Positions 1-31,032 of a stretch of DNA of 64,000 nt are shown in pieces. Each line of letters begins with the position of its first letter. Position 1 is the stretch's first letter. Source of the DNA: Porodaedalea pini (Eukaryota > Basidiomycota > Agaricomycetes > Hymenochaetales > Hymenochaetaceae); contig NBAY01000054.1 of NCBI GenBank assembly GCA_002794775.1, positions 124,001-188,000 on the forward strand, given 5' to 3'. The notes below the pieces were generated by a model. That model was not told the DNA's origin, ran no database searches, and saw nothing but the letters and a program-made list of their open reading frames with translations. The position numbers and the translations under genes were made by a program.

Positions 1-334
1 TACAGCAGCAATCTACTACATGCAGTTCTACGCACTTCTCGCCTGACTCTCACTCTAAACCTGTACACACCAACTCTGTCACTGACTCTCAGAACTCCAT
101 CACCCAATCACCAAAAACCTTCGGCCACTGTCATAAGTGCTGACTCTACCCAGCCAAGTCTTGGTCCCATCAGAATCCCGCTCATATCCATATCGCCAAG
201 TCTTCATATCTTGAACCTTGCTCTACTTAGGTTGTCCCTCTCAGTATACCGAGTCACTGCAGTCCCCTTTGGGTTGAACACAAGCACTAGCCCAGATTGC
301 CCTTTGAATTAGAAGAGTCTGCACCCCTATACAT
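1..334 (+). repeat. LTR-A, 5' copy, 3' portion only
   Basis: Matches 20804-21134 almost base for base; differences are mostly C/T and G/A transitions. It ends in TACA at about 334, with a two-base insertion relative to the 3' copy. The U3 start lies outside the window. Confidence 0.85.
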
Positions 335-1358
335 TGGAGCCCACCGTGAGGGGGACAAGGTGCCTCACCTAAGTATCAGGTCGATGTCTGAAGCTCCTTG
401 GCACTCTACACACATACAGGCAAAGGTCCAGGAAGAACTGAGCAACTCACCACCACCACCCAGAGGACGAGGCTGAGGAAGACCAAGAGGTCACCCACCG
501 GCCACAGCCACCCCTCAAATCTTACATACCCCCAGAGAAGCATTGTTGTCACCTTTTTGCTGATCTGGAATTGCCAACCCAGAAAACACACCTCAGGACA
601 CTGAACAACAACAGCAATCCTCAGTAGCCAAACCAGAAACCACACAAGAACGAGGACAACCAGTCGAACCTAGAAGGATCCTACCTGATCTCATCAAAAC
701 TCCACTATCACTTCATATCCCAGGAAGTTTCATAACTGGCAACAGGTCTCATCTCAGCATTGCCAGTACACCACTCAGTCGGCAGACACAACGACCCAGG
801 GGAGCACCCAAAAGTGAGGAAAGGAACCCAGGCCTCAGAGGATACAGAAGTCCAACAAGGGAACAAAGTCGCTCCAGATCTGAAGAAGTAGTCAGGAAAT
901 TAGTATCACCAGGACCGTGAGAATCAGCAACACTGTATCAAAACCAGTCACTAGGATCGTTGTCACCCTGAAGGCTAGGATCACCACTTAATTGGAACAG
1001 GCAAGCCATCAGAAGGCGACTCAATGAACCTCTGATCCAGACAGAAGGACCAATAGAAGGACCAACAGAATGAAACTCCAAACCTGAGAATCCTACCCCC
1101 GACCAAGAAGAATGATCAACCCCGGGATCACCACAAACTCAGTCCAAGACATCAGAGGAAGAACTACCCCTGCCAGCACCACCACTAACTCCAGAAGGAA
1201 CGGTACCTGTTGCGATATCAAGAATTGCCAATCCCTACCTGGAAACTTGCCCTTCTACCCCGGAACAACCAGGAAGAACACCAACTCCACCCACAAGAAC
1301 ACCTACACTGGCACCGCCAACTTCCCATATTGTGGTGCCACCAATAGTCAGAGCAGTC
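335..1358 (+). other. Element A primer-binding region and untranslated leader
   Basis: Directly after the LTR lies TTGGAGCCCACCGTGAGGG (336-354), in the usual place of a primer-binding site. It has no obvious complement in the LTR transcript start, so a tRNA primer is likely but I cannot name it. The rest is Pro/Thr/Gln-codon-rich sequence with stops in all frames. It may be decayed N-terminal gag or a long leader. I see no convincing gene. Confidence 0.45.
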
Positions 1359-2917
1359 ATGGCCAATTCTGCCACACAAGGATCGAGCCAAGGACCTTCA
1401 CAAGCTCCTCCAACGGTACCACCAGCACAACCCATACCGAACATAGCAAATCCTCTCCCGGACCTCGCTGAGTCCAGAAATCTCCCAATCACCAGACCAA
1501 ATCCTCCAGTTCCAGGAGCAACAATGTCAAACAGACATGACAAACGAGCACCAGCAATGAATGCTGATGTGGAACCAGAAGGGATCCTGCAATTCTTTGA
1601 AGAAGTCAACATATTGGGATTGAACACAGGGATCACTGAGCTACAGAAATTTAATTGGGCATGTTACTACACACCGGTACATGAGGAGTTACTATGGTCA
1701 ACTCTCCCACAGGCACGACAAAACAATTTCATGTCATTCAAAACAGCTGCCCTAAGCTTCTATCTGGCGGCAATGATAAGATACATGTACGGGGATCTAA
1801 TCAACTTTGTCACCGAGAACTCCAATAAAGTTTTGATGAGCACAGCTGCCCTGGGAGAATATCATCAAAGCTTCATGCGTATGATGTCATATCTGGTTCA
1901 AGAAGGAGTCATTTCAGAACTAGACCAAAAGTGGTTCTATCGAGAAGGTCTGAATCAGCTCACCAATCAGCAACTTGAACAACAGCTTCAGTTGGTTGAC
2001 TTTTGACACCCGGCTGGCATCCCTTGGGATATACCGGTACTATACAATGAACTCGACTGACTTATATCAGGAGGAGTCCTAGTGACTGGCCCTGGTGCGC
2101 AGCAAGGTTACGCAGTACCACAGTATGGAACATTCAGGATACCCGCAGCACCTCCATACTTTACTCAGCAACATGTTGCTGCAGCATCTGGACCATATGC
2201 ACCAACCCCCATCAAACAAGAGGACATGGAACTAAGCCTTCTCACACACATGGTATTGGACTTACAAGCTGAAATAAGGGATCTCTGGGGTGAAAGGAAG
2301 GAGGACTATCGAAGATGAGACTACAAGGATCGGTACACTCGAGATTGGCCATATGCCCCTAATGAACCAAGGGATTACCAATGACCTGATGATTACAGAC
2401 GACCACGCGAAGAGTACAGGGCACCACCAAGAGGCCCACCTCCAGCCAGAAATATGCAGGTAAGGAACACAGGACCCTGAATGTGTGCAATGTGCCACAG
2501 CACTGCACACCTATTCAGGGACTGTACGATCAGGGACATGTTGCTGAACCAGCAACTATTGGCCTTGGATGTGCAAGGATTCATTGTGATACCAGGAGGA
2601 ACACGACTACTGCCAGGACCTCAAGGCTTTTCTCTACTGGATTGAATGAACTTGTACTACCGAGACCACCCGAATGAAGTCCCTCCTGGTACGACTCTTC
2701 CTGTCAATATGACGGTGCTACAAGATCCACCACTACACCAAATGGCGAACTTGTTTGATATGTACTATCCTGCCATATCAGGACCAAGTATGTATACGCC
2801 AACCCAGCCATGTAAGGAGGAAGCCCATATCAAAGAAATCCAGGACAAATATGTAGAAGAAGGAAGGAAGGTTTGGTTTGATGATATGGCAAACTCTTGT
2901 GGTCAGCAGAGATGATC
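1359..2917 (+). pseudogene. Element A gag-like protein (degenerate)
   Basis: One reading frame continues with interruptions from the ATG at 1359. It has a Pro/Gln/Ala-rich start, then an alpha-helical capsid-like block (about 1560-2000, rich in Phe, Leu and Tyr), a Pro-rich stretch with many Arg and Tyr, and a zinc knuckle CX2CX4HX4C (CAMCHSTAHLFRDC) at 2484-2525. A knuckle after a helical block is the classic nucleocapsid arrangement of retrotransposon Gag, which packages the RNA in a cytoplasmic particle. Stops at 2004-2006, about 2316 and 2478 are mostly TGA where Arg or Trp would fit. The frame continues into the protease region. Assignment as Gag rests on position and knuckle, not on a recognised capsid family. 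Confidence 0.65.
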
Positions 2918-2918
2918 G

Positions 2919-3895
2919 GTGAGACTGGCAAATATAGGAAAAGTCAACTCTCCTTCACCTAAGCACACGACAAAACCAATGAAAGAACAAGAGGGACGCG
3001 AACCAGCTACAGACTCAGGCATACCGGAAACTGAAACAGACAAAGGAAAGGAGAAAGAATCAGCTGAGCCCAGAACAATCAAAGAATCAGTACCCGACTC
3101 CATTCCACCAAGTGAGCCTATGCAAGTCCATGTGACGCCACCACGAGAAAGGATGGAACCAAAGCCTGGACATCCCAACCTGACAGTAGACATACAGAGG
3201 CCTCAGTTCAAATACAACACACTGGCAAATGACCCCGCAATGGTTGATGCAGTGTTTCACCAATTCTTGGACTCTACGGTGTCAGTATCAGGTCGAGAAC
3301 TGTTGGCAACCTCCCCAGAAGTCAGACAAAAGTGCAAGGATATGATGATGGCAAAGTGAAGTCCAATAAACCCTGAAGATGAAGGCATGGCCATGTACTC
3401 AGTAGGACCCAGGCTAGGATTGCCAGACGAGACAATGGAAAGGGAACCAGTCACACCAGCAACTGTACCAATTTGAGTCATCAATGTATGGCTGGATGGA
3501 AAAGTCAAGGTAGAAGGACTACTTGACACTGGAGCTTCATTTATTGGAATATCGCAAGACGTGTGGAAACATCTAGGATCACCAACTCTGAACAACGAAT
3601 GAATCACTATCAAAACAGCAGACGTGTCTAGGCCCAAATCACTTGGACTAATACCATGACTCAGGATAGGGCTCAGAGGATTCTCAGTACTTGTACAAGC
3701 ACAAGTCGTACATCCAGCACTGTTCAATATCCTACTCGGCCGACCGTTCCTCGCACACTGCAAGGCTCAGCTCATGGATATAGACATTGATGACCAGGTA
3801 CTAGAACTAATCCACCTGGTAACAGAAGAAGATATAACAGTTCCAACCCAAGAACGAACACGACAAAAGCCATCAGCAAAGGAGGACAAGAATTT
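2919..3895 (+). pseudogene. Element A protease region (aspartic protease, degenerate)
   Basis: Same frame as gag. A charged, low-complexity linker rich in Lys, Glu and Pro (2919-3200) is followed by a conserved-looking block ending near 3357. The retropepsin motif LLDTGASFIGIS lies at about 3520-3555, with a later ILLGRPFL block near 3730 that fits the second half of the protease fold. The enzyme would cut the Gag-Pol polyprotein as a dimer. In-frame TGA codons at 3474, 3600 and 3658 break it. At the T5 run near 3893-3897 the coding frame changes: everything downstream (RT to integrase) reads one base back. Confidence 0.75.
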
Positions 3896-5566
3896 TTGAT
3901 AGTCAATGAATTGGTATCAAATCGACAAGATGAACTAGAAATGCAACCATGTTATACCATGGATACCCCGGAGTCAAATGCAGTACATATTTCTTTTGAC
4001 AGGCAGTCTATTGAAATCACCGTCACGGAAAAGGGAGGCATAAAAACAAAGCAAAAAATGGAAAACAACAAAACCCGAATGAATGATGCAACAGGACTAT
4101 TCTCTATTAATCACCCTTACGATAACGAATCTCTAATTCCTCGAACAAGTCAAACTCGCCAAATGACTCAACCTTTCTACAAATACAAGAAGGTCACCGA
4201 TTGTATAAAGTCGGTTCCAACCACACTCCCCAAAGAATACTGAATCACCAGAATGCTGCACCCCGATCCTCTGAAAGACCTTCCCGAACTACTGACCCAT
4301 CCACCACCATTCTCACCTGGGAAGTGACTCACACAGGAATGATATGATGAAATGAACATAGACCCAGCCAGGTTCCTACTCCCTGAAGAAAAGGACCTTG
4401 CATGGTGGGTTATTCGGACACAGGAAATGGCATTCCCTTGGGATGAAATGGAGAAAGGCACACTCAACTATGACTACTTCACCCCAGTTCTTATCCCAAT
4501 GATCAAACATATTCCATGGGTCCTGAAGAATATTCCCATCCCACCGGGGATATTCGACAGGGTCATTGCAATCATCAAAGACAAAATCATGTCCGGTGTT
4601 TACAAACCATCAAACTCATCATACCGATCCAAGTGGTTCTGCATAGTAAAGAAGGATGGAAAGTCATTGAGAATAGTCCACGATCTTCAACCTCTAAACG
4701 CAGTCACAATACAAGATCCATTGGTACTGTATCCAACAGAACACATTGCCGAATCTTTCGGAGGGCAGTCCTGCTATACAACCTTGGACTTATTCATGGC
4801 ATTCGACCAAAGGAAACTTGCCATATGAAGTAGGGACATAACAACATTCCAGATGCCACTAGGAGCATTCTGACTCACATCGATTCCCATGGGGTATACG
4901 AACTCCCAGCAAATCATGCACGCTGATGTCACATTCATCCTGAAAGACAAAATCCCAGACATGGTGTTCCCATACATTGATGATGTACCCATAAAAGGGC
5001 TGGCCTCATGATATGAGCTACAGGATGGATCATACAAGACCATCCCAGAAAATTCAGGAATCTGCCAATTCATATGGGAACACCTAAATGATGTCAACTG
5101 AGTCCTCCAAAGATTCAAAGTAGTTGGAGCGACTCTGTCTGGGAAAAAGTTGGTACTCGCTGCACCCGAAGCTGTGATAGTCGGCCATACATGCAACTAC
5201 TCAGGATGAGTCCCAGACAAAGCATGAGTCCAAAAAGTCGTCAACTGGCCCCCTTGTGAAGACATTACCGATGTTTGATCATTCCTCAGGACTGCAGGAG
5301 TTCTTAGGCATTTTATCAACAACTTCGCTCGGCTGGCATATGATCTGAACCGACTCACTGGAAAAGATGTCCCCTTCTCATTTGGAAAACTCAAACAGCG
5401 ATTGATGGACCAACTCAAGAAGGCAGTCACTGAGTCTGGAGCCATCAGGCCAATTGACTACAAATGCGGGAGACTGGTCCACCTTTGTGTAGATTTGTTG
5501 ATTTGAGGATACAGAGCGATTCTCCTACAGATTGGAGAAAATGGAGAATGATTCCCAGCTTGTTTT
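3896..5566 (+). pseudogene. Element A reverse transcriptase (degenerate)
   Basis: From 4352 the frame encodes an RT of the Ty3/gypsy type common in Agaricomycetes: a YRSKWFCIVKKDGKSLRIV fingers block (4621-4677), then TLDLFMAF (palm, first Asp) at 4783-4806. After a TGA come the TFQMPLGAF block (4851-4877) and the catalytic FPYIDD box near 4970-4987. Stops at 4826-4828, 4871-4873, 5008 and later are TGA codons where CGA is expected by comparison with relatives. The enzyme would copy element RNA to DNA in the particle. The segment 3896-4340 is a spacer without recognisable domain. Confidence 0.8.
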
Positions 5567-7411
5567 ATGTCTGCAACATGGAACGAGAGGGAACAGAACT
5601 ACTCACAGCCAAAAGTAGAACTATTCGGCCTCATGAGGGCTCTTCATGACACACGGATCTACCTAATAGGACTGGACCACTTCTACATTGAAGTCGATGC
5701 CAAGTACATTAAAGGCATGATCAACAACCCAGATATCCAGCCAAATGTGACGATCAACTGGTGGATTGCTGGAATCTTATTGTTCCACTTCACAATTATC
5801 CATGTACCAGGCACTTGGCATACAGGCCCAGACGGACTCAGTCGGCGAAAGCGAGCAGATACCGACCCTCCAGATGACAAAAACTATGAAGAATGGATCG
5901 ACAACCAGTATGCTTTCATATTTGTAGCATACACTGAAGACATTCCTCCTGCTGCTGACCCTCCCACCATTCCCTGGACAACTGCAGCAGAATCGGCCGA
6001 TCAAGAGTTGATAAAAATCAAGGAGTTTCTCAGTGACCCAAAGAAACCAGAAGACATGACAGACAACGAATTTCAACACTTCGTAACAAAGGCAACTCGG
6101 TTCTTCATTGCAGATGGACAACTCTGGAGGAAACGATACTTGGGACCACACCAACTCGTACTCACACGAGATCACCAACTCTCAGTCATGCAGTCAGCAC
6201 ACAATGACCTGGGACACAAAGGATTCTTTTCAGTACAACTACGAATCCACAATCAATTTTGGTGGCCCATGATGAGTTCCAACATACATTGGTTCCTGAA
6301 GATGTGTCACTTGTGCCAGACTCAGCAATTCACTCACATACAAATCCCACCAAATGTTCCAACACCAGTGCCACTATTTGCCAGGGTACACATAGACATG
6401 ATGCTCATGCCCAAATCAGGGGGATTCAGGTATATCATCCAGGCAAGAGACTCACTCACAGGCTACCCAGAGTTCTGACTCTTGCGCACCGACAACTCAA
6501 GATCGATCGCCAACTTCATATTTCAAGACATCATATGTCAATGGGGTTACATTCATGAGATTGTATCAGACAATGGTCCATCATTCAACAGTGAAGTAAT
6601 CAGGATGTTGGCAAGATATGGAGTCCACAATATCTGAATATCCCCTTATAACTCAAGAGCAAATGGAATTGTAGAGTGGCGCCACAGGGACCTTCGGGAA
6701 ACACTGATGAAACTTGCTGGGAATGACGAAGCTCAATGGTCACAACATGCATACCATGCCATATGGGTGGAGAGGATCACGATTCAGAAAGCAACAGGAT
6801 ATTCGCCATACTACATGGTCCATGGAGTCCAGCTGATCCTTCCATTTGACCTGGCCAAACAAACATACATGTCGCCGGTATACTCGTCCAAGGTATCACA
6901 AGCAGAACTACTCACTGCATGGGCAAGGGCACTCCAGCATCAACCAGAAGACTTGAAACGAGTACACTCAGCAGTCATGCATGCTCGCTTCAAATCAATC
7001 CAGCAATTCAAAAAACACTACCAAAACACAATCCAAGACTACGACTTTGGTCCTGGAGCCCTGGTTCTGGTTCGAAACTCATGATTCGACACGGAACTAA
7101 GCTGGAAAGCCAAACCCAAATACCTTGGACCTATGGTAGTTATTTGCCGAACAACTGGAGGATCGTACATACTCGCAGAACTCACAGGTGCAGTCTCGGC
7201 ACTATGATACGCAGCATTCAGAGTCATCTTGTACCACCCCCAAGCAAACATATCGACCCCAGTCACCCAGATAGTGGAGCAAACCAACTCAGAACTCGAT
7301 GATCTAGCCAACAAACATTCAAAAATTGAAGGGGAGGAGCTCAGTGCCGAGGATCGGCCACAACCAACAGAAATCCTCGACACCGACTCTGGAACTGAAT
7401 CCAAATCATGA
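5567..7411 (+). pseudogene. Element A RNase H and integrase (degenerate)
   Basis: Residues from 5567 show an RNase H-like block ending in the typical VPGTWHTGPDGLSRR (5800-5850). The integrase zinc domain follows (HNDLGHKGFF ... CHLCQ, HHCC type) near 6200-6330, then the catalytic core with HIDMM (6391-6405), SDNGPSFNSEV (about 6567-6600) and NGIVEWRHRDLRE (6664-6702), giving the D, D and E positions. TGA stops at 6476-6478, 6638 and 7082 interrupt it. The C-terminal part (7083-7411) is acidic and shows no chromodomain, unlike families D and E here. Role: tRNA/RNA strand removal, then integration of the cDNA. Confidence 0.8.
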
Positions 7412-7624: not shown

Positions 7625-9784
7625 CTACTTCCTCCCTTTTCCTTTTCCCTTCCTCTTCTTCTCCTTTTCTTCCTTCTCCTCCTGTTCCTGAATGGTCTGA
7701 TAGTTAATGAAAGATTCCTTGTCAAGGAACGGCATAGGTGGCATCCAATCCTCAACCTCCTCGTATTCACTGAGACAACACATGAGCTCCTCGACACAAG
7801 CCTCATATGCCTCAAGACAACAACGGATGGCGGCCTGATGCTCATGAATCAACACACAAGACTCGGTGACATTCCTAGCCAATGCCTCAACCAGGATGTC
7901 GATGGAAGCTGCATCTGAGTAGTCAGGCACGTCACTGAACTGCCAGACTGCGCCGCCAATACCAATTGGGTCCACCATGGAGAGCATGAGAGGAGTGAGC
8001 TGGGTACCACCACACTGCCCATGGAACTGATTGAAGATGCAGCATGCCTTGTTCCACGAGCAGCGAGCGCACCGCCGACTCTTGGGGACACCATCGCATG
8101 ACATGCCTGTGACAATGCAAGTGTTGCAGGCAAGGGCAAACTGAACAGTCTGCCCTAGGTGTACCCCACCTCTGAGAAAATCCGGGTCCAGGCCATCAGA
8201 GATGGCCTCTTTGGGCTTCGCATCCCTCACAGAAGATGCACCCACAGCGCATGGAACCTTGGACGGACCAGGATGGGAAGGACCTTTGTCGCCACTGGAT
8301 TCAACCAAAACTGGCTTCTGCTTCATCCCAGGCTTCGTAGGAGGGATGTTGGTGGCCACCAGCTCAGGACACGCATGCAAACCACCAACCTACACCGGGA
8401 ACAGTCAACCATGAAGATCAGGATCAGTACAGAAAGGAATACTCACCTTTGTCACCTCACACGGTACCTTCATGGATGAGGTGCTTCCGCTGACTGTCAA
8501 AGGATCAGCTTTTACACTCCCAGCTGGCGCAGCCAGGAAAGGAGAGGTGGAAGTCCTGTAAGGGGGCACAGCAGGCCCACCAGGACCTTAACGAGACACG
8601 GCACTCGCATCCGAGCCAGCCCAAGGCAATGATGCGGGAGAGTTGACTTCCCTGCTTTCTGCGCCTGAATGCACAAGGACAGGACGAGGGCGAGGCTGAC
8701 ATGTACACAACCCAAAATGAGGTGAAGGTGGGACTGACTGAGTGGGAACAGGAGGGCTCAGTTTCTATGACAAATCAGCAGGTATACAAAAAAAAAAAAA
8801 AAATTATTATACTCACAGCAGATGAAGCCGGCAGAGGAGGACCGACCATACGATAGATCCGACCCTGGAGCTCCTTGTTGGTCGCAGCAAGATACAGTGC
8901 TTGTAGCGACTTGTGCATGCCCCTCAGTTTCACCGTGTGCTCCTCCTGTTCCTGGGCCTGTTTCACCTCCAGGAGCACCCTATGCTTGACCCAAAATTGC
9001 ATCTCTTGTGCAGCCTGCTTGGCATGCTCAGTGTCCTCACGTGCCCAACACTCTACCCTCTCCTTGGCCTCAGCAGCAGTGCATGCACACTTGGCAGCAA
9101 CAAGCTTGCATTTATGCTTACGCTTGGCCACCTTCTCCTCCTCCTCAGTAATAAGGGACCAGAGATGCTTTGGCAGCATCTCCTTGGTCGTGTTCTCCAC
9201 TGCTTCCTCAAACTCAGTCTGGAACACATCCAGAAGGACGTCCATCGCAGTAAAAGAGGGGTGGGTAGCTTTCACGTGCTCAGAGATGCCATCCCATGTG
9301 GTAGAAAGGAAGCACTAGAAAAAGTGTATCAGAAACGAAAACAAGAAAACAAAAACAAGCGGCACATCCAGGTAGCCTGCACATACGCCATCGCCAACTC
9401 GTGACCCTCCTCACCTGACTTCTTGAGATCATCCAATGCCAAGTTGAAGTCTTCCATACGTGATGAGAATGGATCACACTGGATGAGGCTTGGCAGAACA
9501 GACTCGGCAGGGGGGACACCAACTTCCCCGGTGGTTTCCCCCTCCTCGCCCACTTCTGCACCCAATGAGGACAACAGCAGCTGCAATGGATGCAGGAGAT
9601 CCATGCCAACAGGCACACCTCCCACGTCTCAGTTGCCATCGTCAGGCTCCTGCAAAAGGGCCGGGGTCACTGGCACATGATTGTTGGGTCCCAGCTTCCA
9701 CTGTGGTGGTGTCGAAAAGCCTCCCCCATCTTTGGGAGATGCGGAGGGCCACAGGATGGGCTCGGGAGTTGTAGTAGTGTTCAT
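7625..9784 (-). pseudogene. Antisense spliced accessory gene of element A: coiled-coil plus Zn2Cys6-type cysteine cluster
   Basis: Read on the minus strand from ATG 9784. Exon 1 is about 9784-9381 (Pro/Gly-rich, then acidic), exon 2 about 9316-8819 (164 residues, strongly helical, rich in Glu, Lys and Ala, coiled-coil-like), exon 3 about 8765-8455 (Pro/Ser-rich), exon 4 about 8399-7625 (258 codons). Introns of about 52 and 57 nt between exons 2/3 and 3/4 have GTGAGT donors, TAG acceptors and phase 0 joins; the first join is less clear (GTATGT or GTGCAG donor). Exon 4 contains cysteines spaced CX2CX6CX8CX2CX6C, the Zn(II)2Cys6 spacing, followed by a Lys/Glu-rich tail. The product would be about 660 residues. 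Two in-frame stops (TGA near 9630, TAA in exon 3) disable this copy. I recall many Agaricomycete hypothetical proteins with this coiled-coil plus CXXC-cluster layout, but the function is unknown. Opposite orientation inside a retrotransposon is unusual. Confidence 0.65.
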
Positions 9785-10544
9785 CAAAAGGGTAAGGCAA
9801 GACCGAGGAGGTGGTAGTAAAAAGTAGAGGGCGACATGTTTCGAAAATTACGATGATCTCTGTCAACAACAATCACGCCCCATGCTACTGGACCGGAACA
9901 AGCACCGTGATCACACTCAAGAAGCACGACATGAAACCTGGTCATTTCAAGATCACCAAAGCACCTGAAATGGTTCTTGACGATCACACACCTCAAAAGC
10001 CAATCACATGTGGATCCAGACCACACCAAATACAGCATGAACCCACCAATCATTCACAATGAACCTAGGTACACACCGAACACCAGCATCTAACTATGAG
10101 CCTGCTTCCACCAAAAAGGAACCATGAGGCACAGAACACACAGACACTCAATGGAAAGTGAACACCAAATAAAATAACTACGCCAAGCCAGGACCACCAA
10201 ACAAAAATCACAACCGGCAATACAGAGACACAGACCGGAACAAAACACATGAAACATTGGACCAAAAAGACATGCAATTCTGCTGATTGACCAGCCGCCG
10301 ACCATGAGAAAATGACACTATTGCTGTCACAAATCACCCATTAAAGGACCCAATTAAAGCACACAAACAAATTGCCCAAAACACGCAACAAATGTGAACT
10401 CTGCTGACTGATGGCATGACCAATACAGAGAGGTCCTCCCGATACAGACATACAAACAACTCTGGCAACGCAACTGCCCTTAAAAAGACATGCCATTACT
10501 GAAAGCAACAAAAGAAAAAGAAACAACATCTGACCCTGCCCACA
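9785..10544. other. Element A spacer without recognisable gene
   Basis: Separates the antisense gene (starting at 9784) from the sense ORF at 10545, so it should hold both promoters. I see no clear TATA box in either direction and no ORF with convincing composition. Confidence 0.4.
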
Positions 10545-11324
10545 ATGGAAAGTACCAACATTACTCCTCCCCATGCGATCATCCTCAAGGGCATGGCACG
10601 CTGTATGCCCAACCCAACCCCTGGTGACCTCGCACTAGCCAACCCTCACCCGACGGGGGGTCTTGCAGATAGTCATATACAACCCAACAACAACCTCATT
10701 TGCCAAGTTTGCAGTGGAATTACTGTTCACATTTGACAAGCTCACGCCCACAGACCTGACTCTGATATACATGGCTTACATGTTCTGCACACCCGAAATA
10801 CAAGAGCGACTCTTGCAGTCACCCACACTTGCTGGAGGCTTGTGGTCTCAATTCTGCACCACAGTCACCATAGCCAGTCCCAATTGCGAGGGGCTCACGC
10901 AACTCACGTATGAAGAAGTATACCACATGGTGTTCAGACAGATCACAAGCAGGAAGGCGACCTCCTACAAATCAGCCCTGACCCTCTCTCAGTTCAATGC
11001 CGCAGCAATGGTGTCCTACATCCAACTGGCATACCTCAGCCAACTGTATGAAGCCTGGGAATTGCTGATTTCTGCAGAAGCCGAGCAGGCCGACTTCGCA
11101 GCAATGCTAGAAGACACCGAGCAGGAGTGTACAGCATGCAAAGCACAACAGTCGGCCCTTCAGGAAACAGTGATCTTGATGGCTCACCTCACTGAAACTG
11201 CTTGGGAACAAGCCATCAAAGCCCATGAGCTACTCTCACAACTAGTTGGTCAACTAAACGAGCTCCACGTTGTACCGATCAACCTGGGTGAGCACATGAA
11301 CTTGATCACATTGTGGAATGACTT
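10545..11324 (+). pseudogene. Element A accessory ORF (5' part), split by element E
   Basis: An ATG at 10545 opens a frame that runs to a run of six G at about 10655-10660. Removing one G joins it smoothly to the frame that continues to 11324, so I read a one-base insertion there. The downstream part is alpha-helical and rich in Ala, Leu, Gln, Thr and Glu (several CysXX motifs, coiled-coil-like from about 11060). Element E is inserted after the codons for Trp-Asn-Asp-Phe (duplicated GACTT). The frame resumes at 19319 and ends at a TAG at 19410-19412. The restored length would be about 290 residues. I recognise no family. It sits between the antisense gene and the last ORF of element A. Confidence 0.55.
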
Positions 11325-11773
11325 TGTCATGGATGCTTTTTAATTATTTTATTCTCTTACCATTTTCCCCTATCTTATCTTATCATATCTTATCCACTCA
11401 TTACTAATCACACTTATTTCGACTTACTCATATCCATTATGCCCCTTTCCCACACTCTCATTATTTGCTGACTGATACTATGACGCTATTGTTCTATGAA
11501 GTTCCATGATGTTCTTTCATCTATCTTTATGTAGTAGCTGATTCCCTGGTCTGTGCGCAGCCTCTGCAGGGTATATAAGTAGGTAGTACTCCTGTACTTA
11601 TCCCTTAGTTTTGACCTGGTCAATTCTACCTGGCTACGTCCAGAAGCTGTCCTCCCACCTCTGTGCTGTGTCAGCTCCCCTGGCTCACCGCTCTCTCTCT
11701 CGCTCCCCTCTTCCTCTGACTGAGTTCTGTGCAACCCGGTTACCTCTTGCGTATCCATAGTCTGTCACTGACA
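11325..11773 (+). repeat. LTR-E, 5' copy
   Basis: 449 bp, TG...CA ends, TATATAA at 11572-11578. Nearly identical to 18865-19313. Confidence 0.92.
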
Positions 11774-11788
11774 CAAGGTCGAAACTAA
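11572..11788 (+). promoter_or_regulatory. Element E TATA box, transcript start motif and complementary primer site
   Basis: TATATAA at 11572 is followed 33 nt later by TTAGTTTTGACCT (11605-11617), where the transcript should begin. Three bases after the LTR, AGGTCGAAACTAA (11776-11788) is its reverse complement at 12 of 13 positions; the one difference is a G-U pair. This is the layout of self-priming Tf1/sushi-type elements, in which the mRNA 5' end folds back onto the primer site. Confidence 0.7.
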
Positions 11789-12631
11789 ACTCCTTACCGC
11801 CTTGCGCACTTCTCAGTCACCACTACCAAGCTGGCTCTGAACGTTCGCGTCTCTTACCGACACCAGTCCCTTTATTGTGCTACATTCTACCATCTCACCT
11901 GCACACCTACTATCACCTTCACACTCGACCTCTTCCTCTTATCCATCATCATTACACTCAACCCTTACATTGTTCAAGTACCTCAAAACCATCCACTACC
12001 CGTCCGCAACCCTGAACTATAAACCAACATTCTTATCCGACGTGTCTGACGACTTGGACTGCGACCCCAACTATGATTGCTTCAACCCACACCTGTTCTC
12101 AGATCGATCTCACGTGCATCAATCAGGCCAATACATCATTAATCCTTTACTTTCATTACCTAACTCACTCGTTTTACAAACCGCCGTCTTCTTTCTATTC
12201 GATCAACCAGCGCTCGTTTGAGAGGGGGTAACGTTGAGCCCAACCCACTCAAGAGTAGCTACCAGGCCTTGGGGGTGATCTTCAGAGAGGTCCCTTGGTG
12301 CCCATTGGAGTCTTCACAGAGGAAGATCCAGGTTTGATCAGCAAGTGAAAGTCGACCACCACACCTGGAGTTTTGTTACAGCGCTCGATCAGATCTGCAG
12401 GTGTCCACACCACCTGTCAGCTGGCAGTGTTGTTTCTGATCTGAGCTGGCTCCACACCCGTATGCCTGACCGTCTGGATCAGCAGCACAGCATTGGAATA
12501 CACCACTGGAAGACACCACCGACGCTGTCCTCGCACAACTACCACTGCTGACCGACGATGACCTAGTACACATAGATGACAAGCTAGGAGCCCTCCAACC
12601 ACCCCACCCATCACCCACACCATTGCCTGTC
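11774..12631 (+). other. Element E leader
   Basis: Holds the primer site and a Ser/Thr/Leu-rich open frame to 12221 (about 114 codons, no clear ATG start), then sequence in which the gag frame is open upstream of its first good ATG from about 12480. I cannot tell whether the first frame is translated. Confidence 0.35.
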
Positions 12632-13723
12632 ATGGCAGAACCCCAAACTCCCGTCGCACTGGCGGCCAGAGCACTGACGATCTCAAATGACACGATGCAG
12701 GAGATCATCAACATGCTACAGGGCCTGGGGTTGTTGGCAACCCCCATGCCAGCAACAGCAACAGCACCTGCTCCCCCTCCCCAAACAATGAACAGTAATG
12801 GAGGGAGACACATTGCCAAACCTGAGGCATTCAACAGGTGAGGCTACAAGAAGTTCGAACAAGCCATCACCCTTTATGTTGAAGCTAACGCAGGGGACTT
12901 CGTGAATGATAAGGATTACTTCCTTTTTGTGCTATTGTTCATGACAGAAGGTGCAGCAGCACTCTGGGCCCAGAACTTCTTGGAAAGCATCAAGATGGAC
13001 GGATACCTGATCTTCTCACTCATCAGCCACCAGAAATTCAATAAACAGCTAGAAGCGGCATTTGGAGACCCGAATGAGCAACAAAACACCATGCAGAAGC
13101 TGGACAGCTGGAAACATACTCGAGACATCACTGCTGACCAATTCTTCCAACAGTTCAACATCTATCGCCAAGCAGCGGGATATGATGACAATGCCAAGAA
13201 TGACGACACCCTCATCCACAAACTGATGAAAGCATTGGATAAGGAAATCGTGTACCGAATACAAATGAGTGACCCCGTTCTGACCACATACAAAGGTTGG
13301 CAGGAAAAAGCCATTCGATTTGACAACGCAAGATGCCAGATAAGGGCCATCAAACAAATGCGTGCTGCTCCGCTCAGACCTCAGGCTCCCCCACCAAAAC
13401 CTGCCCAAACATTCGCACCTAGAATCCCCAAAAGGCGCGATGCCACCAGAGTCACATACAGAGGCATGGGGAAGCCAATGGACGTCTCACTCGAAGAGCT
13501 GAGGAAAGTGGGAGTATGCTACTACTGTAAGAAGCCTGAGCATCTACAGAGGGATTGCCCACAGAAGAAGCAGGTGATAAGGGCGGTGTTGATGGGGATG
13601 GAGCCACAAGAGAGAAAAGTCTGGGCAGACGAGACCATGACGCTCAAGGAGTCAGACTTTGCAGAGGAAGAAGAGGAGGCGCTCTTTGAGCAGGAGTTGG
13701 ATTTTGCGGAACCCCAGCAGTGA
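12632..13723 (+). pseudogene. Element E Gag
   Basis: ATG 12632 starts a 363-codon frame with one TGA at 12839 where Trp or Arg is expected. A Pro/Ala-rich start precedes a retrotransposon gag (capsid) block about 12860-13350, with conserved-looking ALWAQNF and a DQFFQQFNIYRQ segment, a basic Pro-rich linker, and zinc knuckle CYYCKKPEHLQRDC at 13517-13558. The tail is acidic. The product packages element RNA. The stop TGA (13721-13723) is preceded by TTTT at 13702-13705, and the pol frame overlaps in -1. The solo LTR-C lies 6 bases after the stop. Confidence 0.85.
13702..13723 (+). promoter_or_regulatory. Candidate -1 frameshift site between gag and pol (element E)
   Basis: Gag codons Asp-Phe-Ala span a TTTT run; a Phe-tRNA on TTT can re-pair one base back, entering the pol frame (Gly-Phe-Cys-Gly). 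The distance from the T run to the gag stop is 15 nt, the same as in D1, D2 and D4. Confidence 0.5.
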
Positions 13724-13729
13724 ACACGG

Positions 13730-14718
13730 TGAAAGGTGAACGGTACGGTCTACTGGCAGACTCGGACCTGGTTGAGTTCGGCCACTGGGGGTTCACTCTA
13801 ATGTGTCTGATGGAGGGGATAGTGTCAGGAAGTGTGGGGAAGTGTAATAGAATACTCAGGGCTAGGTGTCGACTCGAGGACGCGAGTACAAAGGACGACC
13901 GGCAAAACGTGCCTAAATGCGGTCGGAGAACAAAGAGCAACTACGATCTTGACAACCCGGGCTCGGAAACTCGCCAGTGAAGACAGGAATCGATACTATT
14001 CGTCGAGACGATTCTGAATCTGAAAAGACCTCGAGACGCGATGCAGAATTGACGGAGATATAGCAGTTGCACTGGTTGCGGCTGGCGGAACGCACGGAAC
14101 TCCCGGAACCAAAAGCTATTTTCGTAGCTCTACGACACGGGCTCGGAATCGTGCAAGAAAAGACAGTGTTCGAAAGCGATTTTCGACGAGATTAAGAATC
14201 TGAAGAGAGCTCGGGAAACGGATAAGAACTGAGGGCGATATAGCGAAAGCAAGATTTGGCCGAAAACAGGACTCGAGACGGAACGGACGGAACGACACTG
14301 AACAGTGACGGAGACGAGAACTAAAGACTGGGACTGACTCAGGGGAGCTAAACTTGTATTTTTGAGACATTTACATGAGTGTTTAAATAACCAACAGAGG
14401 GTTGAGCCTCTGAGCGGCGTACAAAGGACACAAAGACAGACCGGAGGCTCTAGCCAAACAACACCAAATAGCCGGAACTCGGAGCCGTAACTCGAGAACA
14501 TGAGTAATTAAGCTTCGGGAGGCTCGGAACAATACCAGATGTGACCCAAAACGGACTTCGGTGGCTCACCGGTGCAGAACCAAGCTGTATGCGTCGAGTT
14601 AATACTGCCAAACACTGAAACTGTCCTGAAATGCATCAGGGATACTTGTAAGGCTGTCCTGAGTCGAGTCGAACCTAATAGAGCCGATTCCGAGGCCAGT
14701 GGCATCGGGATCTCCACA
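13730..14718 (+). repeat. Solo LTR-C inserted in element E
   Basis: 989 bp beginning TGAAAGG and ending TCCACA, flanked by the 4-bp duplication ACGG (13726-13729, 14719-14722). A second copy is at 38035-39031. Orientation is inferred from the TG/CA ends only. No internal region of this family is present in the window. Confidence 0.88.
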
Positions 14719-14722
14719 ACGG

Positions 14723-17700
14723 CACTGACTGGGATAGGTTCAGTTTCAGTTTTTCAAACGGCCATTTTTGATAATCTTATGGACTCTGTAGATAATTTAG
14801 ATAACACACAAAAAAATGTAGAAAACAATGTCACTCGCAAAAATATTCCTTCTGTTCCTGTACCGATAGTTAGTAGTGTAGATATGTCTCCATGTAACAA
14901 CATTTCTGTCTCATCATCTGATTATATACCTGCATCTGAAAATCATGTAAAATCCTCTTCTTCACCTTTTAATTCTATTTCTTCCTTGGCCGGAACTGAA
15001 CCGAAATCTGTGAAAAATGAAAACTCATCAAAACAAGCTGAGAGGAAGTCCTGGAGAGATTGCCCCATCCCCTTTACTGCACCATGGGTTGTACAGCATC
15101 TCAAGGAGGATAAACTCAAAAGTGCTTTAACGACTCTCCGAGTGTAGATGAAACAGCAGAGGCATGCTGAAGCAAATGAAGAGACAGTGCGTCAGATCAT
15201 TGCGCTAGAAGAATCAGATGCTGTAGCAGCTGTTAGGGACCTGAGGGGTCCAAAACAGTTCATAAGAGGGTCTCAGGGGCAACAGCTCATGGTACCGATT
15301 CTCCTTCAAACGACCAACACCAGTAACCAGTTCAAGGTAGACGCACTACTGGACAGTGGCTGCACTGGCTCATGTATCAACCAATCCTTTGTTGAAAAGC
15401 ATCAGATCAGGACAAAAAAGACACCCATCCTGATCTGAGTTTACAATGCTGACGGCACACTCAATAAGGACGGTTCAATCATGGAATTTGTGGAAATGCG
15501 CATGACAATTAAAGATCATTTGGAGCACATCCACTTCGCAGTCACGGATCTAGGGAAAACAGATGTGTTCATCGGACACGAATGGTTAAAGCTGCACAAC
15601 CCCAACATCGACTGGCAAAAGTCAACAATCAAATTTGATCGATGCCCTGATGTATGCGGCTATATCCATGGTCTAGAGGACATTGAAGTGGACCCCAATG
15701 AGAACCTTGATCTGGTAGAATTTGAAGATGGCAATCAGCTCTTTCTCTTTGATTGGGACAGGTACATTAAGTCCGATCCAAGAAAAGCACTGAAGGTCAG
15801 GCAACAGGCACTCAAGGAGGTCCCAGACTATGTCAAAGAGTTTGCAGACGTCTTCAGTGAACAGGAATTTGATCAGTTACCAGAGAGACGCCCTTGGGAT
15901 CACACTATTGAACTCAAGCCGGGTTCAAAGCTCTCTGACTGTAAAATCTACCCGCTCAGTCCATCTGAACAGGTGGCACTTGACGAATTCCTTGCCAAAA
16001 ACCTGAGAACTGGACATATTCGCAACTCTCAATCTGAGATGGCATCCCCCTTCTTCTTCATCAAAAAGAAGGATGGCAAGCTTCGTCCTGTACAGGATTA
16101 TCGCAGGCTCAACGAGATGACGGTTAGGAACAAATACCCGTTACCTCTAATCCAAGAGCTCATTGACAAAACAAAACAGGCAAAATTCTTCATGAAGCTT
16201 GACATACGCTGGGGTTACAATAACATTTGGATTCGAGAGGGTGACAAGCACAAAGCTGCCTTCAGGACGAACCATGGTCTATTCGAACCAACGGTCATGT
16301 TCTTCGGTCTCACAAACTCACCGGCAACCTTCCAAGGATTTATGAACAAGATCTTCTGAGAACTCGTCAATGATGGACACGTCATAGTCTACATGGATGA
16401 CATTCTAATCTTTGCACAAACTCGCGAACACCATGACAAACTCGTCCGACAAGTCCTGGAAGTGTTGCGAGCAAACAAGTTGTTCTTAAAGCCAGAAAAG
16501 TGCAGCTTTGCTCAAGAGACCGTGAACTATCTTGGGCATATCCTCGGCAATGGACAGATTTGCATGGATCCAGCCAAAGTGGCAGGTGTAAAAGATTGGC
16601 CAGTTCCTAAGAACAAGAAAGAACTACAGTCTTTCCTTGGGTTCTGCAACTACTACCGCTGCTTTATCCTAGCATTCAGTCACTACGCAAAGCCCTTGAC
16701 TGTATTGACCGGAGATGTAGAGTAGAAGTGGGAGGTGGAGCAACAAGAGGCCTTTGAACGTCTGAAGTGGAAGCTCTGTGAAGAACCCATACTCACAGTG
16801 CCTACTGATGACGGTCAATTTCGGGTGGAGGCTGATTTGTCGCATTTCGCTAATGGCGCCATTCTGTCCCAATTCATTGACAGAAAGTGGCATCCAATTG
16901 CATACCGATCGCAAGTGCTTAGCCAAGCAGAGCGCAACTATGAAATCTATGACAAAGAGATGTTTGCGATCATGTGCACACTGGATGACTGGCGACAATA
17001 TCTTCTAGGGGCAACACAAACCTTCGAAATCTGGTCAGATCACCTCAACCTCCAGTATTTCCGAAAACCCCAGAAGATTAACCACCGACAAGCAAGATGG
17101 CTACAGGAGTTAGCGGACTACAACTTCAAACTGTTCCATAAACCAGGTGCCCTGATGACTAAGGCTGACCTCCTCTCGAGACGAGTGGATCATGAGAGGG
17201 GGGAGAACGACAATATCGACATCGTTTTGCTCAAGCTGGACCTATTCGTAAACAAAAAACTGCTAGAAGCATTGGATGCAGACTTTGTTAAACGAATTAA
17301 AAGGGTACAAAACAACAGGGACAGAGCAGTTGTGAAGGCGTTAGAGCAGAAGGAATGAGAGTGGGATGAGGAAGAAGAAGGGTTGTTGATGTGGAAGGGC
17401 AGGATCTATGTGCCAAAAGACCATAAACTCCGAGAAGACATCATTCAAAACCATCACAACAGCACACTCGCAGGACACCCAGGATGCTACAAGACCCATG
17501 AGTTGATCACATGCAACTACTGGTGGCCAGGAATCCAGCGAGATATTCAAATGTATGTCAAGGGATGTAACACGTGCCAACGTACCAAGGCACACCGAGC
17601 AAAACTGCATAATCCCCTGAATCCAAATGAGATCCCAAAAGGTCCTTGGGAAATCGTCACGGCAGACCTGATCAGCGAACTACCCAAGTCCAACGGGCAT

Positions 17701-18747
17701 AACGCAATCTGTGTCTTCGTTGACAGGTTCAGTAAACAGGTGCATGCGATCCCGACCTCTGTGAGCATAATGTCAGAAGGAATGGCAAGGCTCTACCGGG
17801 ATCATGTCTTCAGGCTACACGGCATACCGTGCAAGTTTATTCATGACAGAGGATTGCAGTTCGAGTCCAAATTCATGAATGAACTATACCAGTTACTGAG
17901 CATCGAGGGAAACCCATCAACGGCATATCACCCACAGATGGATGGTCAAACAGAATGGATAAACCAAGAGATTGAACAGTACCTTTGTCTCTTTGTTAAC
18001 CACCATCAGTCGGACTAGGCGGAATGGCTTGCACTAGCAGAATTCGTGTATAATGACAAAGAGCAGACGTCGACAGGAGCGTCGCCCTTTTTCGTCAACC
18101 ATGGGAGACACCCGTACAAGGGCATGAATCCTAGACACGAATTGACAAATGAGTCCGCTAAGCAGTTTGCCGACCAAATGACAAAGATCAGGGAGGAAAC
18201 CGAAGTGGCACTGAAGCATGCAGCTGAAACCATGAAGCACTTCTATGACAGGACAAAGGGAGAATCCATCAAGTATAAACCTGGGGATAAGGTCATGCTC
18301 GAAGGAGCTCACTTAAAGACAGATCGTCCTATGAAGAAACTAGGAGACAAACGATATGGGCCTTTTGTTGTTGAAAAGAAAATTGGCGCATCAGCATACA
18401 GGCTTAAGCTTCCACGCACATGGAAGAAGGTCTATCCAGTCTTCAATGAAGTGCTTCTCTCCCCATACCATGAACTGCAGTACACATTGCAGAAGCGAGA
18501 TCCTCCACCCCTGCCCGAGATCATCGATGATGTGCCGGAATATGAGGTTGAAAAGGTTGTCGACTCCAAGCTGGTGCGAGGAAAGCTCAAATACCTCATA
18601 CACTGGAAAGGGTACCCGAATGAAGAGCACACCTGGGAGCCAATTGAGAATTTGACAAACTCTCAAAAGGCCATCGATGAATTTCATAAATCAACCCCTG
18701 CTCCTCGTGCCCTCAACACCCTAGAAATGTCGCAACTAAAGTTCTGA
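14723..18747 (+). pseudogene. Element E Pol: protease, RT, RNase H, integrase, chromodomain
   Basis: The frame is -1 relative to gag and starts upstream of the LTR-C insertion. A Ser/Asn-rich linker (14723-15060) leads to the protease with DSGCTGSCIN (about 15351-15380). RT follows at about 15890-16720 with KLDIRWGYNN and catalytic YMDD (16390-16401), then RNase H 16735-17200 (ETNYEIYDKEM-like block). Integrase spans 17383-18330 (HHCC finger 17450-17580; catalytic core with TADLI and HDRG). A C-terminal chromodomain (YEVEKVVDSKL ... YLIHWKGYPN) lies at 18540-18690. Stops at 15147, 15438, 16359, 16725, 17358 and 18018 are single-codon TGA/TAG at Arg or Trp positions. The chromodomain should target integration to modified chromatin. 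Otherwise the polyprotein is complete, so the copy died only by point mutation. Confidence 0.92.
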
Positions 18748-18864
18748 CCTATATTTGAGATGACGGAGCCAGAGAGACAAGAAGGAGTGGCACAGTGGTG
18801 GGCTGGTAAGTTCCAAGGTAGGAAACATGGGCAATTGGGACGCTCGCCTTGAAGGAGAGGGTCA

Positions 18865-19313
18865 TGTCATGGATGCTTTTTAATTATTTTATTCTCTTAC
18901 CATTTTCCCCTATCTTATCTTATCATATCTTATCCACTCATTACTAATCACACTTATTTCGACTTACTCATATCCATTATGCCCCTTTCCCACACTCTCA
19001 TTATTTGCTGACTGATACTATGACGCTATTGTTCTATGAAGTTCCATGATGTTCTTTCATCTATCTTTATGTAGTAGCTGATTCCCTGGTCTGTGCGCAG
19101 CCTCTGCAGGGTATATAAGTAGGTAGTACTCCTGTACTTATCCCTTAGTTTTGACCTGGTCAATTCTACCTGGCTACGTCCAGAAGCTGTCCTCCCACCT
19201 CTGTGCTGTGTCAGCTCCCCTGGCTCACCACTCTCTCTCTTGCTCCCCTCTTCCTCTGACTGAGTTCCGCACAACCCGGTTACCTCTTGCATATCCATAG
19301 TCCATCGCTGACA
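18865..19313 (+). repeat. LTR-E, 3' copy
   Basis: 449 bp; preceded by a purine-rich stretch (AAGGAGAGGG, about 18852-18861) that can act as polypurine tract. Followed by the duplicated GACTT. Confidence 0.92.
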
Positions 19314-19318
19314 GACTT

Positions 19319-19412
19319 CAATGTGATGTTCACAGCCAAGTATGGAAGGATCGCACAGGAAGGATCAGCTATGACAGACAGGCAGGCCAAAGCCGAACAC
19401 CTGGCAAAATAG
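19319..19412 (+). pseudogene. Element A accessory ORF, 3' part
   Basis: Continuation of the frame interrupted at 11324 (Asn-Val-Met-Phe onward) to the TAG at 19410. Only about 30 codons; basic and Ala-rich end. The clean frame match across the GACTT duplication is the evidence. Confidence 0.55.
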
Positions 19413-19559
19413 AGTACCCCTCCATTTCCTTTAATAACAAAGAACCCCATTTTTGTTTGACAACAGACACTGACCCTCTCTATTTTTACTTTCTCTCCAC
19501 CCAAAAATATTTTTTTTCTCTTACACCGAACATCGCACTGATTAATAACCCCGAGTCTC

Positions 19560-19566
19560 TATAAAA
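19560..19566 (+). promoter_or_regulatory. TATA box of the last element A ORF
   Basis: TATAAAA about 100 bp upstream of the ATG at 19667, followed by a pyrimidine-rich leader. This suggests the ORF has its own promoter rather than relying on the LTR. Confidence 0.5.
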
Positions 19567-19666
19567 TACCCCCTCCCTTTCATTCATTCAGAATTATCCA
19601 CCCTACAATATTCCCCTTTTTGAATAATTCAATTTTGTTCTACTTCACTTCTACCCTCCACCAACC

Positions 19667-20218
19667 ATGCACTTAGACTGAACCAGCACCAAGTCTTTCT
19701 TTGACAACCAAATCCTGTGCCCGGATGACATATGTGGGGTTCACAACTGGTCGATATCATTCACACTCGCCATTGCATGCCATCACTCATATCAGGCCAC
19801 TCTCGAGGACATCCTATGCCACTCCAGATTTCACCAGCACTTCTGGTGCTTGATCGCCAAGCCTGGCATGAAGGTGCATGAGTTCTTCCTGCACCTGTAC
19901 ATGGTGATCAACATCCAGTTCCGACCCCGACCAACCCTGATCAATAACCACACCAAGTATGTTGTCAACCAAGGCCTGGAACTCCCGGTCAATCAGCATC
20001 TATGTTTGGCAGTGACACATGACCTGATCTGGATCGCAATTATCCTGTGGCACCCAGACCTACAGATGAGCATACACCACCCAGCCCCGTCAGTCCAACT
20101 TGAGAACCTCCGTGACATGGTCGCGCAGCAGATAGCGCACATCACAAAACTCCAGGGTGCGATTTCAGCATTGATCGGTGAACCTTCAACTTCTCCTTCT
20201 TCTTCTTCACACGATTAA
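19667..20218 (+). pseudogene. Element A accessory ORF near the 3' LTR
   Basis: 183 codons from ATG 19667 with one TGA at codon 5 (19679-19681). A His/Leu/Ile-rich central part with several Trp and Cys is followed by a helical segment and a Ser-rich end. I see no known domain and no clear membrane segment. It lies 105 bp before the 3' LTR, with its own TATA box. The single early stop and otherwise clean frame suggest recent loss. Function unknown. Confidence 0.5.
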
Positions 20219-20323
20219 AAACCACAGAATGCACCGAACCTTGCCCATTACATTTTCTTTAATTTCCAATTCAACCACTTCTCATGTACACTGCAAACAT
20301 TTTTTTTCTGGCCCCCCGGGAGA

Positions 20324-21134
20324 TGTAGCAATTAACCATCGCCTACGCACCAGCTGAGTCCTACTCCCTTCATTTACACTACTCCTTTGACTCCCTTTAC
20401 CAGCCACCAAACATTACCATCTATTCATTCATAATCGGCAGCCGACACTTTATTATAATTCTTGGTATGGACACGATCGGACAGACGGATGTCATACGAA
20501 CTCGATCCACACATGGACGACCGACTCTCGTGGGCACAGGTGGAAGGAATTAGGCAAGTAGGACAAGGACGTGGGATATGGTTGTGCAGTGGTGGGAAAC
20601 AAGAGAGCAGGTTGGGCACTATAACATCACTCCATGACGATCGGCTGCGTGATGTGCACAGGCCAATTGCCGACTCACATTCACATCCACTCACACAGAC
20701 TCAGCCAAGTCTTGCACCACTTCCTCTGCTTTAGTTTAGTATAAAGTCGCAGTAGTTTATAGAGAGAAAGAGGACAGAGATAGACAGTACCCCTCTACCT
20801 CCATACAGCAGCAATCTACTACATGCAGTTCTACGCACTTCTCGCCTGACTCTCACTCTAAACCTGTACACACCAACTCTGTCACTGACTCTCAGAACTC
20901 CATCACCCAATCACCAAAAGCCTTTGGACACTGTCATAAGTGCCGACTCTACCCAGCTGAGTCTTGGTCCCATCAGAATCCAGCTCATATCCATATCGCC
21001 GAGTCTCCATATCTCAAACCTCACTCTACTTAGGTTGTCCCTCTCAGTATACCGGGTCACCGCAGCCCCCCTTGGGTCAAACATGAGCACTAGCCCAGAT
21101 TGCCCTTCGGATTAGAAGAGTCTGCACCCCTACA
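20324..21134 (+). repeat. LTR-A, 3' copy
   Basis: 811 bp, TGTAG...CTACA, preceded by CCCGGGAGA (20315-20323) as a poor polypurine tract. TATAAAG at 20740-20746 marks the U3/R region. A reverse solo copy is at 48217-49068. Confidence 0.9.
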
Positions 21135-21138: not shown

Positions 21139-21720
21139 CTTGCCATTCACACACAAGATGTAGCATCCTGCAGTCGGTGCTCTGCTACATCGAGGTGGTG
21201 CAGGGGAAGGTGACAGGGCTCACAGAGAAGGAGAAGATCAGCATGGGAGTGAGGGGCAAGCCAGAGTTGGATAAGAGGGAAGGCAAGGCATCTCTCTCAT
21301 CAAAGGCGAATACCTCTTCAGACATGTCCAACCCCTGCAGTCTTCTGACAGAGCTGACATCAATGGACCCCTCCAACACATTGTGCATGCCAACAGTCTA
21401 CCAGATGGACACTTCACTTCCATTAACTCAGCAGATGCAGACTCAAGGGCAGTCTAATGACAAGTGTCATAAGATCCTTGGAAAACCGTTCACACCGCTA
21501 TCACCTCTGTCATCGCTGCTTCTTTGCCCATGGCGCACTTTCATCGCCACACTCATTGTGGTATCAAGATTCTTACAGGATCGATGCTATTCAAATCAAG
21601 CATGGGCAAAGCTCTCCGGTCCCATCATGCGTGGTTGAATGCTGCTAACGCACATTGGGCAATGCCCTAGGGTGGTGTCTCTGGGTCGGCAAGAGCACTA
21701 TGCCGCCGCAGGAAGAGAAG
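21139..21720 (+). pseudogene. PHO80/PCL-like cyclin relic, N-terminus removed by element A
   Basis: The frame reads CSILQSVLCYIE, then a low-complexity linker, then LLLCPWRTFIATLI, SRFLQDRCYSNQAWAKLSG (about 21520-21625). After a frameshift it reads LGNALGWCLWVGK (to about 21690). I recognise this as the block found in Agaricomycete PHO80-like cyclins (CPRRTF, SNRAWAKLSGL, ALEWRLWVGK). Such cyclins partner a CDK of the Pho85 type in nutrient signalling. The N-terminal cyclin part is absent; element A ends 4 bases upstream, so the missing part probably lies left of element A, outside the window. The missing glycine-loop residues and the frameshift make this a pseudogene. Confidence 0.6.
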
Positions 21721-21759
21721 TCACGCAACATGCAATGCACAAAAGGTGAGGGTATGAAT

Positions 21760-23640: not shown

Positions 23641-23754
23641 TTATTAAGGCTTCCATTCTAGACTTATTTAATTTTCATGACATAATGATTTTTTGCATTT
23701 TAAAAAATGATTCTAAGGCAGGAATCAAAAAAGACCTTATATAGCTAGGTACTC

Positions 23755-24100: not shown

Positions 24101-24109
24101 TATACTCAA

Positions 24110-25000: not shown

Positions 25001-25004
25001 CAAA

Positions 25005-25646: not shown

Positions 25647-25654
25647 TATAAAAA
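25647..25654 (+). promoter_or_regulatory. TATA box
   Basis: TATAAAAA 143 bp upstream of the ATG at 25797; fits a promoter of the downstream gene. Confidence 0.5.
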
Positions 25655-27851: not shown

Positions 27852-27878
27852 CCGCTGAACAGCATCAATCTGGATGGT

Positions 27879-31000: not shown

Positions 31001-31032
31001 CACTATGATTGACATATAATCAGCATCCTTCA

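Follow-up and report, generated by a model that had tools for sequence, protein, structure and literature searches.

Element A, a long terminal repeat (LTR) retrotransposon of the basidiomycete Porodaedalea pini (Hymenochaetaceae, assembly GCA_002794775.1), is a member of a multicopy, probably Ty3/Gypsy-type family in which gag-pol is followed, before the 3' LTR, by a block of three further genes: a four-exon gene on the antisense strand and two open reading frames (ORFs) on the sense strand, termed X and Y. The copy described here occupies, with both LTRs, C54:123521-145134 and lies almost entirely within the window, by which we mean the whole 64,000-nt stretch of contig NBAY01000054.1 that was analysed (positions 124,001 to 188,000, or C54:124001-188000) and whose own numbering is used below; further copies were surveyed in the 53-Mb assembly of 201 contigs. 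The genes of the extra block recur at one position, have gene structure and were under purifying selection before they decayed. We suggest, with a probability of about 0.6, that the whole is best explained by a retrotransposon family with gag-pol and a three-gene accessory block acting for the element, and element A seems to have needed its own helper proteins. The usual view treats LTR retrotransposons as gag-pol machines; this fungal family retained three extra genes under selection.

The selection is apparent from a comparison of inherited with private variants among the copies. CpG-type columns were masked, variants present in at least three copies were counted as inherited, and singletons were treated as having arisen mostly after insertion; the three-copy threshold stops duplicate pairs from generating shared variants on their own, and since the copies are related, p-values serve as a guide only. 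Inherited non-CpG variants at codon positions 1, 2 and 3 numbered 3, 2 and 31 in exon 4 of the antisense gene (27 copies), 4, 3 and 20 in X and 2, 1 and 22 in Y, against 7, 8 and 8 in the X-Y spacer used as a control (20 copies for X, Y and the spacer). The synonymous to non-synonymous counts were 29:10 for inherited versus 32:35 for singleton variants in exon 4 (Fisher p 0.009), 21:6 versus 22:38 in X (p 0.0005) and 22:3 versus 12:21 in Y (p 0.0001), corresponding to non-synonymous/synonymous (N/S)-type ratios of 0.11 versus 0.33, 0.08 versus 0.49 and 0.04 versus 0.55, respectively. When exon 4 was read in its two wrong frames the ratio rose to 6.4 and 1.9, and the spacer gave 0.63 for inherited (8:14) and 1.45 for singleton variants (p 0.23). 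As inherited variants are mostly synonymous and private ones are not, we conclude that purifying selection acted on all three genes during the spread of the element and that they decayed after insertion, much of this decay being at CpG sites. Selection on the proteins across copies, which an earlier reading of this DNA made without database searches (hereafter the sequence-only reading) had proposed to check by dN/dS, is thus borne out for exon 4, X and Y. The copies are rich in CpG to TpG/CpA changes, and the observed/expected CpG ratio is 0.42-0.50 in element A, compared to 0.62 in an element nested within it and 0.66 at 21200-37000. This CpG decay shows that a mutation process acting at CpG sites targets the copies, as would be expected of methylated DNA.

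The antisense gene (minus strand) consists of exons of 417, 498, 318 and 765 nt (9368..9784, 8817..9314, 8447..8764 and 7625..8389), all joined in phase 0 and encoding ~665 residues, with introns of 53, 52 and 57 nt between them (9315..9367, 8765..8816 and 8390..8446). In the window copy exons 1 and 3, the latter Pro/Ser-rich, carry one stop each, while exon 2, charged and coiled-coil-like by eye, and exon 4, with 254 codons plus a stop, are open; exon 4 holds a cysteine motif, a C-terminal helix and a Lys/Glu-rich tail. Of 27 copies, 24 start with ATG; the donor of intron 1 is GT in 23 and AT in four (the window copy included), that of intron 3 is GT in 25 and GC in two, and the acceptor of both introns is AG in every copy. 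The 15 copies that have intron 2 all show GT-AG borders; in the other 12 it is gone together with six exon nucleotides and the frame runs on. The four-exon model of the sequence-only reading, with its phase 0 joins and short introns, therefore stands, and the conservation of splice sites over 27 copies fits its claim that the gene was built for transcription and splicing of its own. The copies with and without intron 2 are split by a single branch of an unrooted tree (support 0.98), which is consistent with one event, and both loss and gain would be compatible with such a tree. An exact loss of the cDNA type can be ruled out, as the six exon bases went along with the intron.

ORF X (sense, intronless, 292 aa) is open in 8 of 13 aligned rows. 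In the window copy its 5' part (10545..11324, plus strand) is frameshifted and truncated at 11324 by the nested element, past which the 3' remainder (19319..19412, plus strand) was read off the sequence against other copies. X and the antisense gene lie head to head across 760 nt (9785..10544), by position a presumed divergent promoter. ORF Y (19667..20218, plus strand), likewise sense and intronless, is 183 aa long in other copies and has a stop at codon 5 in this one; ~105 nt ahead of its ATG stands a TATA box, TATAAAATA (19560..19568, plus strand), found before Y in all four copies compared (window, L060, L064 and L068). Both sense ORFs, one of them with a TATA box, had been recognised correctly from the sequence-only reading. 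We also considered X and Y as one long gene, which is ruled out in the copies read by the stop that terminates X and the ensuing spacer of ~300 nt without codon bias. All three extra genes are broken in the window copy, which is dead.

Using the end of pol (5600-7100) as a probe, we scored 40 copies of 108 candidates, and the antisense gene, in whole or in part, adjoins the pol end in 39 of them: 29 by a scripted downstream match, nine by matches spanning pol into exon 4, which were passed over by the overlap rule of the script and added from the genome match list, and one, at C45:15138 (L079), by inspection of its DNA, where the end of exon 4 is followed by an insertion. The claim that the extra genes recur at the same place thus holds for the antisense gene, complete or partial, in 39 of 40 pol copies; in the copy at C21:553204 homology stops at window position 7514 and no antisense gene follows in the next 1 kb examined. 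Matches to the antisense gene were found at 62 places in the genome, where insertion-split copies may count twice. ORF X was scored at 40 places of 67 candidates, 33 of them with a listed antisense match upstream; the remaining seven are not thereby antisense-free, each match list comprising about 40 scored places. Among 41 listed LTR matches, 24 had no X upstream and no pol downstream among the listed matches. Matching 4-bp flanks were found at C54:94794-115473 (ACCT) and C19:139429-154046 (CCCC, of low complexity), two units whose LTR pairing is deduced from position and flanks. Target duplications of 4 bp are also present at two single LTRs, L023 and window 48217-49070 (minus strand, ACGA), the latter probably a solo LTR of the element A family. 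A flank examined on C56 showed no LTR start and was uninformative. As to whether the extra genes are independent insertions, a partial test showed that no inverted repeat of at least 14 nt joins both edges of the block in the window copy.

The window copy and an outer copy on contig C14 have their flanks in common, and so do copies C14a and C54a. Over the stretches examined (C54 ~56-154 kb and C14 ~60-148 kb) the two contigs have common element insertions with the same flanks at ~95% identity; they are duplicates (segmental duplication) or haplotypes.

The cysteines of exon 4 are spaced CX2CX6CX8CX2CX6C, as reported in the sequence-only reading, and all six are conserved in every copy with letters there, bar one copy at each of two positions. 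The Zn2Cys6 spacing rule reads CX2CX6CX5-12CX2CX6-8C, and all 11 open exon 4 rows agree with it. However, none of the 11 fits PROSITE PS00463, the basic signature for DNA contact that lies between the second and third cysteines, and none matches Pfam Zn_clus at E up to 10. As the spacing fits but PS00463 and Zn_clus do not, exon 4 would be better described as carrying a cysteine cluster of unproven kind, and the assignment to a Zn2Cys6-type family is not supported. AlphaFold assigned a predicted local distance difference test (pLDDT) score of 30-42, i.e. low confidence, to the motif, with a confident helix predicted in exon 4 only near the C terminus; X is predicted to be mainly helical, again at low confidence (pLDDT 42). 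Exon 2 gave weak, sub-threshold Pfam matches. The best match of X in the PDB, Ika8 (0.00018), was rejected: no single stretch passes alone, and the score may reflect helix composition.

In a protein collection we found no relatives at E <= 0.01 of exon 4 (480 candidates) or X (2351 candidates), by a search that needs shared 5-residue words and similar length and that distant or differently spliced relatives could escape. The RNaseH-integrase piece of element A (5552-6478), used as a control, retrieved 217 proteins at E <= 1e-5; fungal proteins are therefore present in the collection, and the few named pol relatives among the 120 matches listed come from Sanghuangporus, Hypsizygus, Pisolithus, Paxillus and Candolleomyces, an Agaricomycete-like affinity. 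Exon 4 and X, the two parts compared with that collection, are thus lineage-restricted at the sensitivity used.

We propose that the block would be transcribed from internal promoters, with one divergent region serving both the antisense gene and X and the TATA box serving Y, and that its products would assist the element in trans as accessory factors. The antisense protein would most likely be nuclear and act on the element or on silenced chromatin (regulation or anti-silencing), while X and Y may support replication or particle functions. It follows from the way retrotransposons copy themselves that the antisense introns persist, since the sense genomic RNA does not splice them, and that the sense genes X and Y lack introns, a pattern matching what is observed. 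Given the CpG decay of the copies, anti-silencing is the most attractive function for the block, as a candidate only; a role as a regulator or in anti-silencing, raised already in the sequence-only reading, amounts to a guess. It may even be that the three genes form a self-contained cassette, in which a spliced antisense nuclear protein and two partners, expressed from LTR-independent promoters, run an anti-silencing or regulatory programme despite methylated LTRs. We hold this bolder version to be tentative and on balance unlikely; were it true, the antisense placement of an intron-bearing gene would let splicing-dependent expression survive retrotransposition.

Several observations weigh against the accessory-block explanation. 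The gene products are known here from sequence alone, and neither Pfam (exon 4, X, Y and exons 1-3, the last from one copy each) nor a sequence search of the PDB with exon 4, X and Y returned anything usable. Mean pLDDT values of 45 for exon 4 and 42 for X leave the models too uncertain for a fold search. The N/S-type ratio is imperfectly calibrated, as the spacer stands at 0.63 and the singleton ratios of exon 4, X and Y do not reach 1. Further to that, exons 1-3 are less constrained, with ratios of 0.39, 0.33 and 0.43 and inherited-versus-singleton Fisher p-values of 0.09, 0.04 and 0.04. No matching target duplication flanks any of the four copies checked (the window element, the outer C14 copy, C14a and C54a). 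Finally, in a simple k-mer test the LTR and the internal non-coding stretches share just a few 10-11-mers, and nuclear or anti-silencing action is without direct sign.

Of the other explanations, one concerns origin and is compatible with an accessory block: the three genes may have arrived whole from another mobile element or a virus in an ancestor and retained the functions of that agent. Three adjacent genes without a known family would suit such a history, and the same origin is discussed for plant antisense ORFs; we consider it rather improbable, given that no inverted repeat joins the block edges in the window copy, that two peptide patterns found no relative of X among IMG/VR viral contigs and that the genes match no Pfam family. 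Less probable still is a captured cluster of host genes, carried as passive cargo or retained because it serves the host. That LTR elements capture genes is established, and the introns of the antisense gene are ordinary fungal ones, but a passive passenger would not show, in variants shared among many copies, N/S-type ratios as low as 0.04-0.11, and a collection containing fungi yielded no relative of exon 4 or X (no search was directed at a single-copy homologue in the host genome). It has also to be asked whether the antisense unit works as RNA, with double-stranded RNA or interference with the sense transcript setting copy number and the reading frame being secondary; the concentration of shared exon 4 variants on third codon positions, their mostly synonymous character and the conservation of six cysteines make this highly unlikely. 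That the reading frames arose by chance within repeat sequence is barely credible in view of the codon-position bias of inherited variants, set against wrong-frame and spacer controls, and of the retained start codon, splice sites and TATA box, even though most copies read are damaged and all three genes of the window copy are broken.

Extra antisense genes are a known feature of LTR elements (Boty brtn, Grande and Retand), and the description of element A as an undescribed system in the sequence-only reading was overstated; what is new is a spliced antisense gene together with two sense genes, all selected. Boty resides in an ascomycete, Botrytis cinerea, and Zhao et al. 2011 is reportedly the original paper on brtn. 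Boty-like elements resemble element A in being fungal LTR retrotransposons with an extra gene, brtn, antisense to gag-pol. They differ in that one antisense gene is named there, whereas element A combines a four-exon, spliced gene in antisense with two genes in sense. In plants, Grande (gene23), RIRE2 and Retand (TRP28) carry an antisense ORF between pol and the 3' LTR in most copies, antisense TRP28 ORFs being present in 97% of Retand clusters (PMC11963269). The Grande antisense protein is nuclear and TRP28 is predicted to bind DNA, the function of the plant antisense ORFs being described as unknown; neither "intron" nor "zinc" was found as a word in two papers on such plant elements. Unlike these, the extra genes of element A lack a match to TRP28 or any other Pfam family, the antisense gene is multi-exon, and two more sense genes are present, with selection measured.

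An additional sense ORF after pol is known from plant elements with env-like genes and from ORF3 of the bdelloid rotifer elements Juno and Vesta. X and Y differ from env-like ORFs in lacking a transmembrane-like stretch, none being seen in X, Y or exon 4 (one copy each), and the best 19-residue Kyte-Doolittle means of 1.07 for X and 1.22 for Y give no env-like sign. HBZ of human T-cell leukaemia virus type 1 is likewise a retroelement antisense gene encoding a nuclear protein, and it is spliced; its promoter, however, lies inside the 3' LTR, whereas the antisense gene of element A starts ~2.5 kb before the 3' LTR when the nested element is left out of the count, and no sequence similarity is claimed. 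VANDAL elements of Arabidopsis belong to a transposon class differing from LTR elements. Their VANC proteins provide a model for an element-coded accessory protein acting against DNA methylation (PMC5735166). Tandem repetition is common among the target motifs of VANC, and the simple k-mer test showed nothing of the kind in element A. No basidiomycete precedent was found by title or start of abstract among the papers listed from an open-licence library, and "antisense" and "extra ORF" are absent from the text of a paper on transposable elements of Laccaria bicolor. The role of antisense and accessory genes of LTR elements becomes testable in a fungus, where the copies supply natural variants, a difference in intron presence and a contrast between inherited and post-insertion mutation. 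If the products act against DNA methylation, this would be a fungal parallel to the plant anti-silencing proteins.

The 5' LTR of element A starts 480 nt to the left of the window, at C54:123521, and its 3' part occupies window 1..331 (plus strand), ending at about 329. The LTR pair (C54:123521-124329 and the 3' LTR at 20322..21134, plus strand, beginning at 20324) is 96% identical over 809 nt and has the termini TGTAG...CTACA, with two additional bases ahead of ...CA in the 5' LTR. Paired LTRs with inverted termini and a short target duplication, which characterise LTR retrotransposons, are found in the family, the duplications coming from other units. The internal length is ~20.0 kb, or ~12.0 kb after subtraction of the nested element, in agreement with the ~12 kb of the sequence-only reading. 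Stops and frameshifts interrupt the gag-pol region (332..7302, plus strand). One ORF at 5552-6478 encodes RNaseH followed by the integrase H2C2 domain (Pfam PF17917, 3.3e-8; PF17921, 1.3e-12); a reverse transcriptase-like reading at ~4343-5200 was made by eye, with no Pfam reverse transcriptase match in the fragments tested, and an aspartyl protease in copy L015 scored 0.0014, below the Pfam cut-off. The nested Ty3/Gypsy element, foreign to element A, is ~8 kb long (11325..19313, plus strand) and inserted within ORF X, with LTRs at 11325-11773 and 18865-19313 that are 98% identical and a target duplication GACTT.

Other repeats are present in and near the window. A ~990-bp repeat (TGAAAGG...CTCCACA) occurs at 13727-14718 and 38032-39031 and in copies L013, L014, L017 and L079. 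Four cases were inspected, and the 4-bp flanks are identical in three and differ by one mismatch in the fourth; the repeats resemble solo LTRs from a further LTR family, inserted at various positions in no fewer than four element A copies. At 23713-24101 there is an array of direct repeats, mostly spaced 32 nt apart, and a near-perfect inverted repeat at 34259-35113 has arms of 406 nt, 99% complementary, around a loop of 43 nt. Two colinear repeat blocks (39433-45713 and 50912-57045), ~76-78% alike and with 254-nt end repeats that are 98% alike in the first block, probably represent another LTR family.

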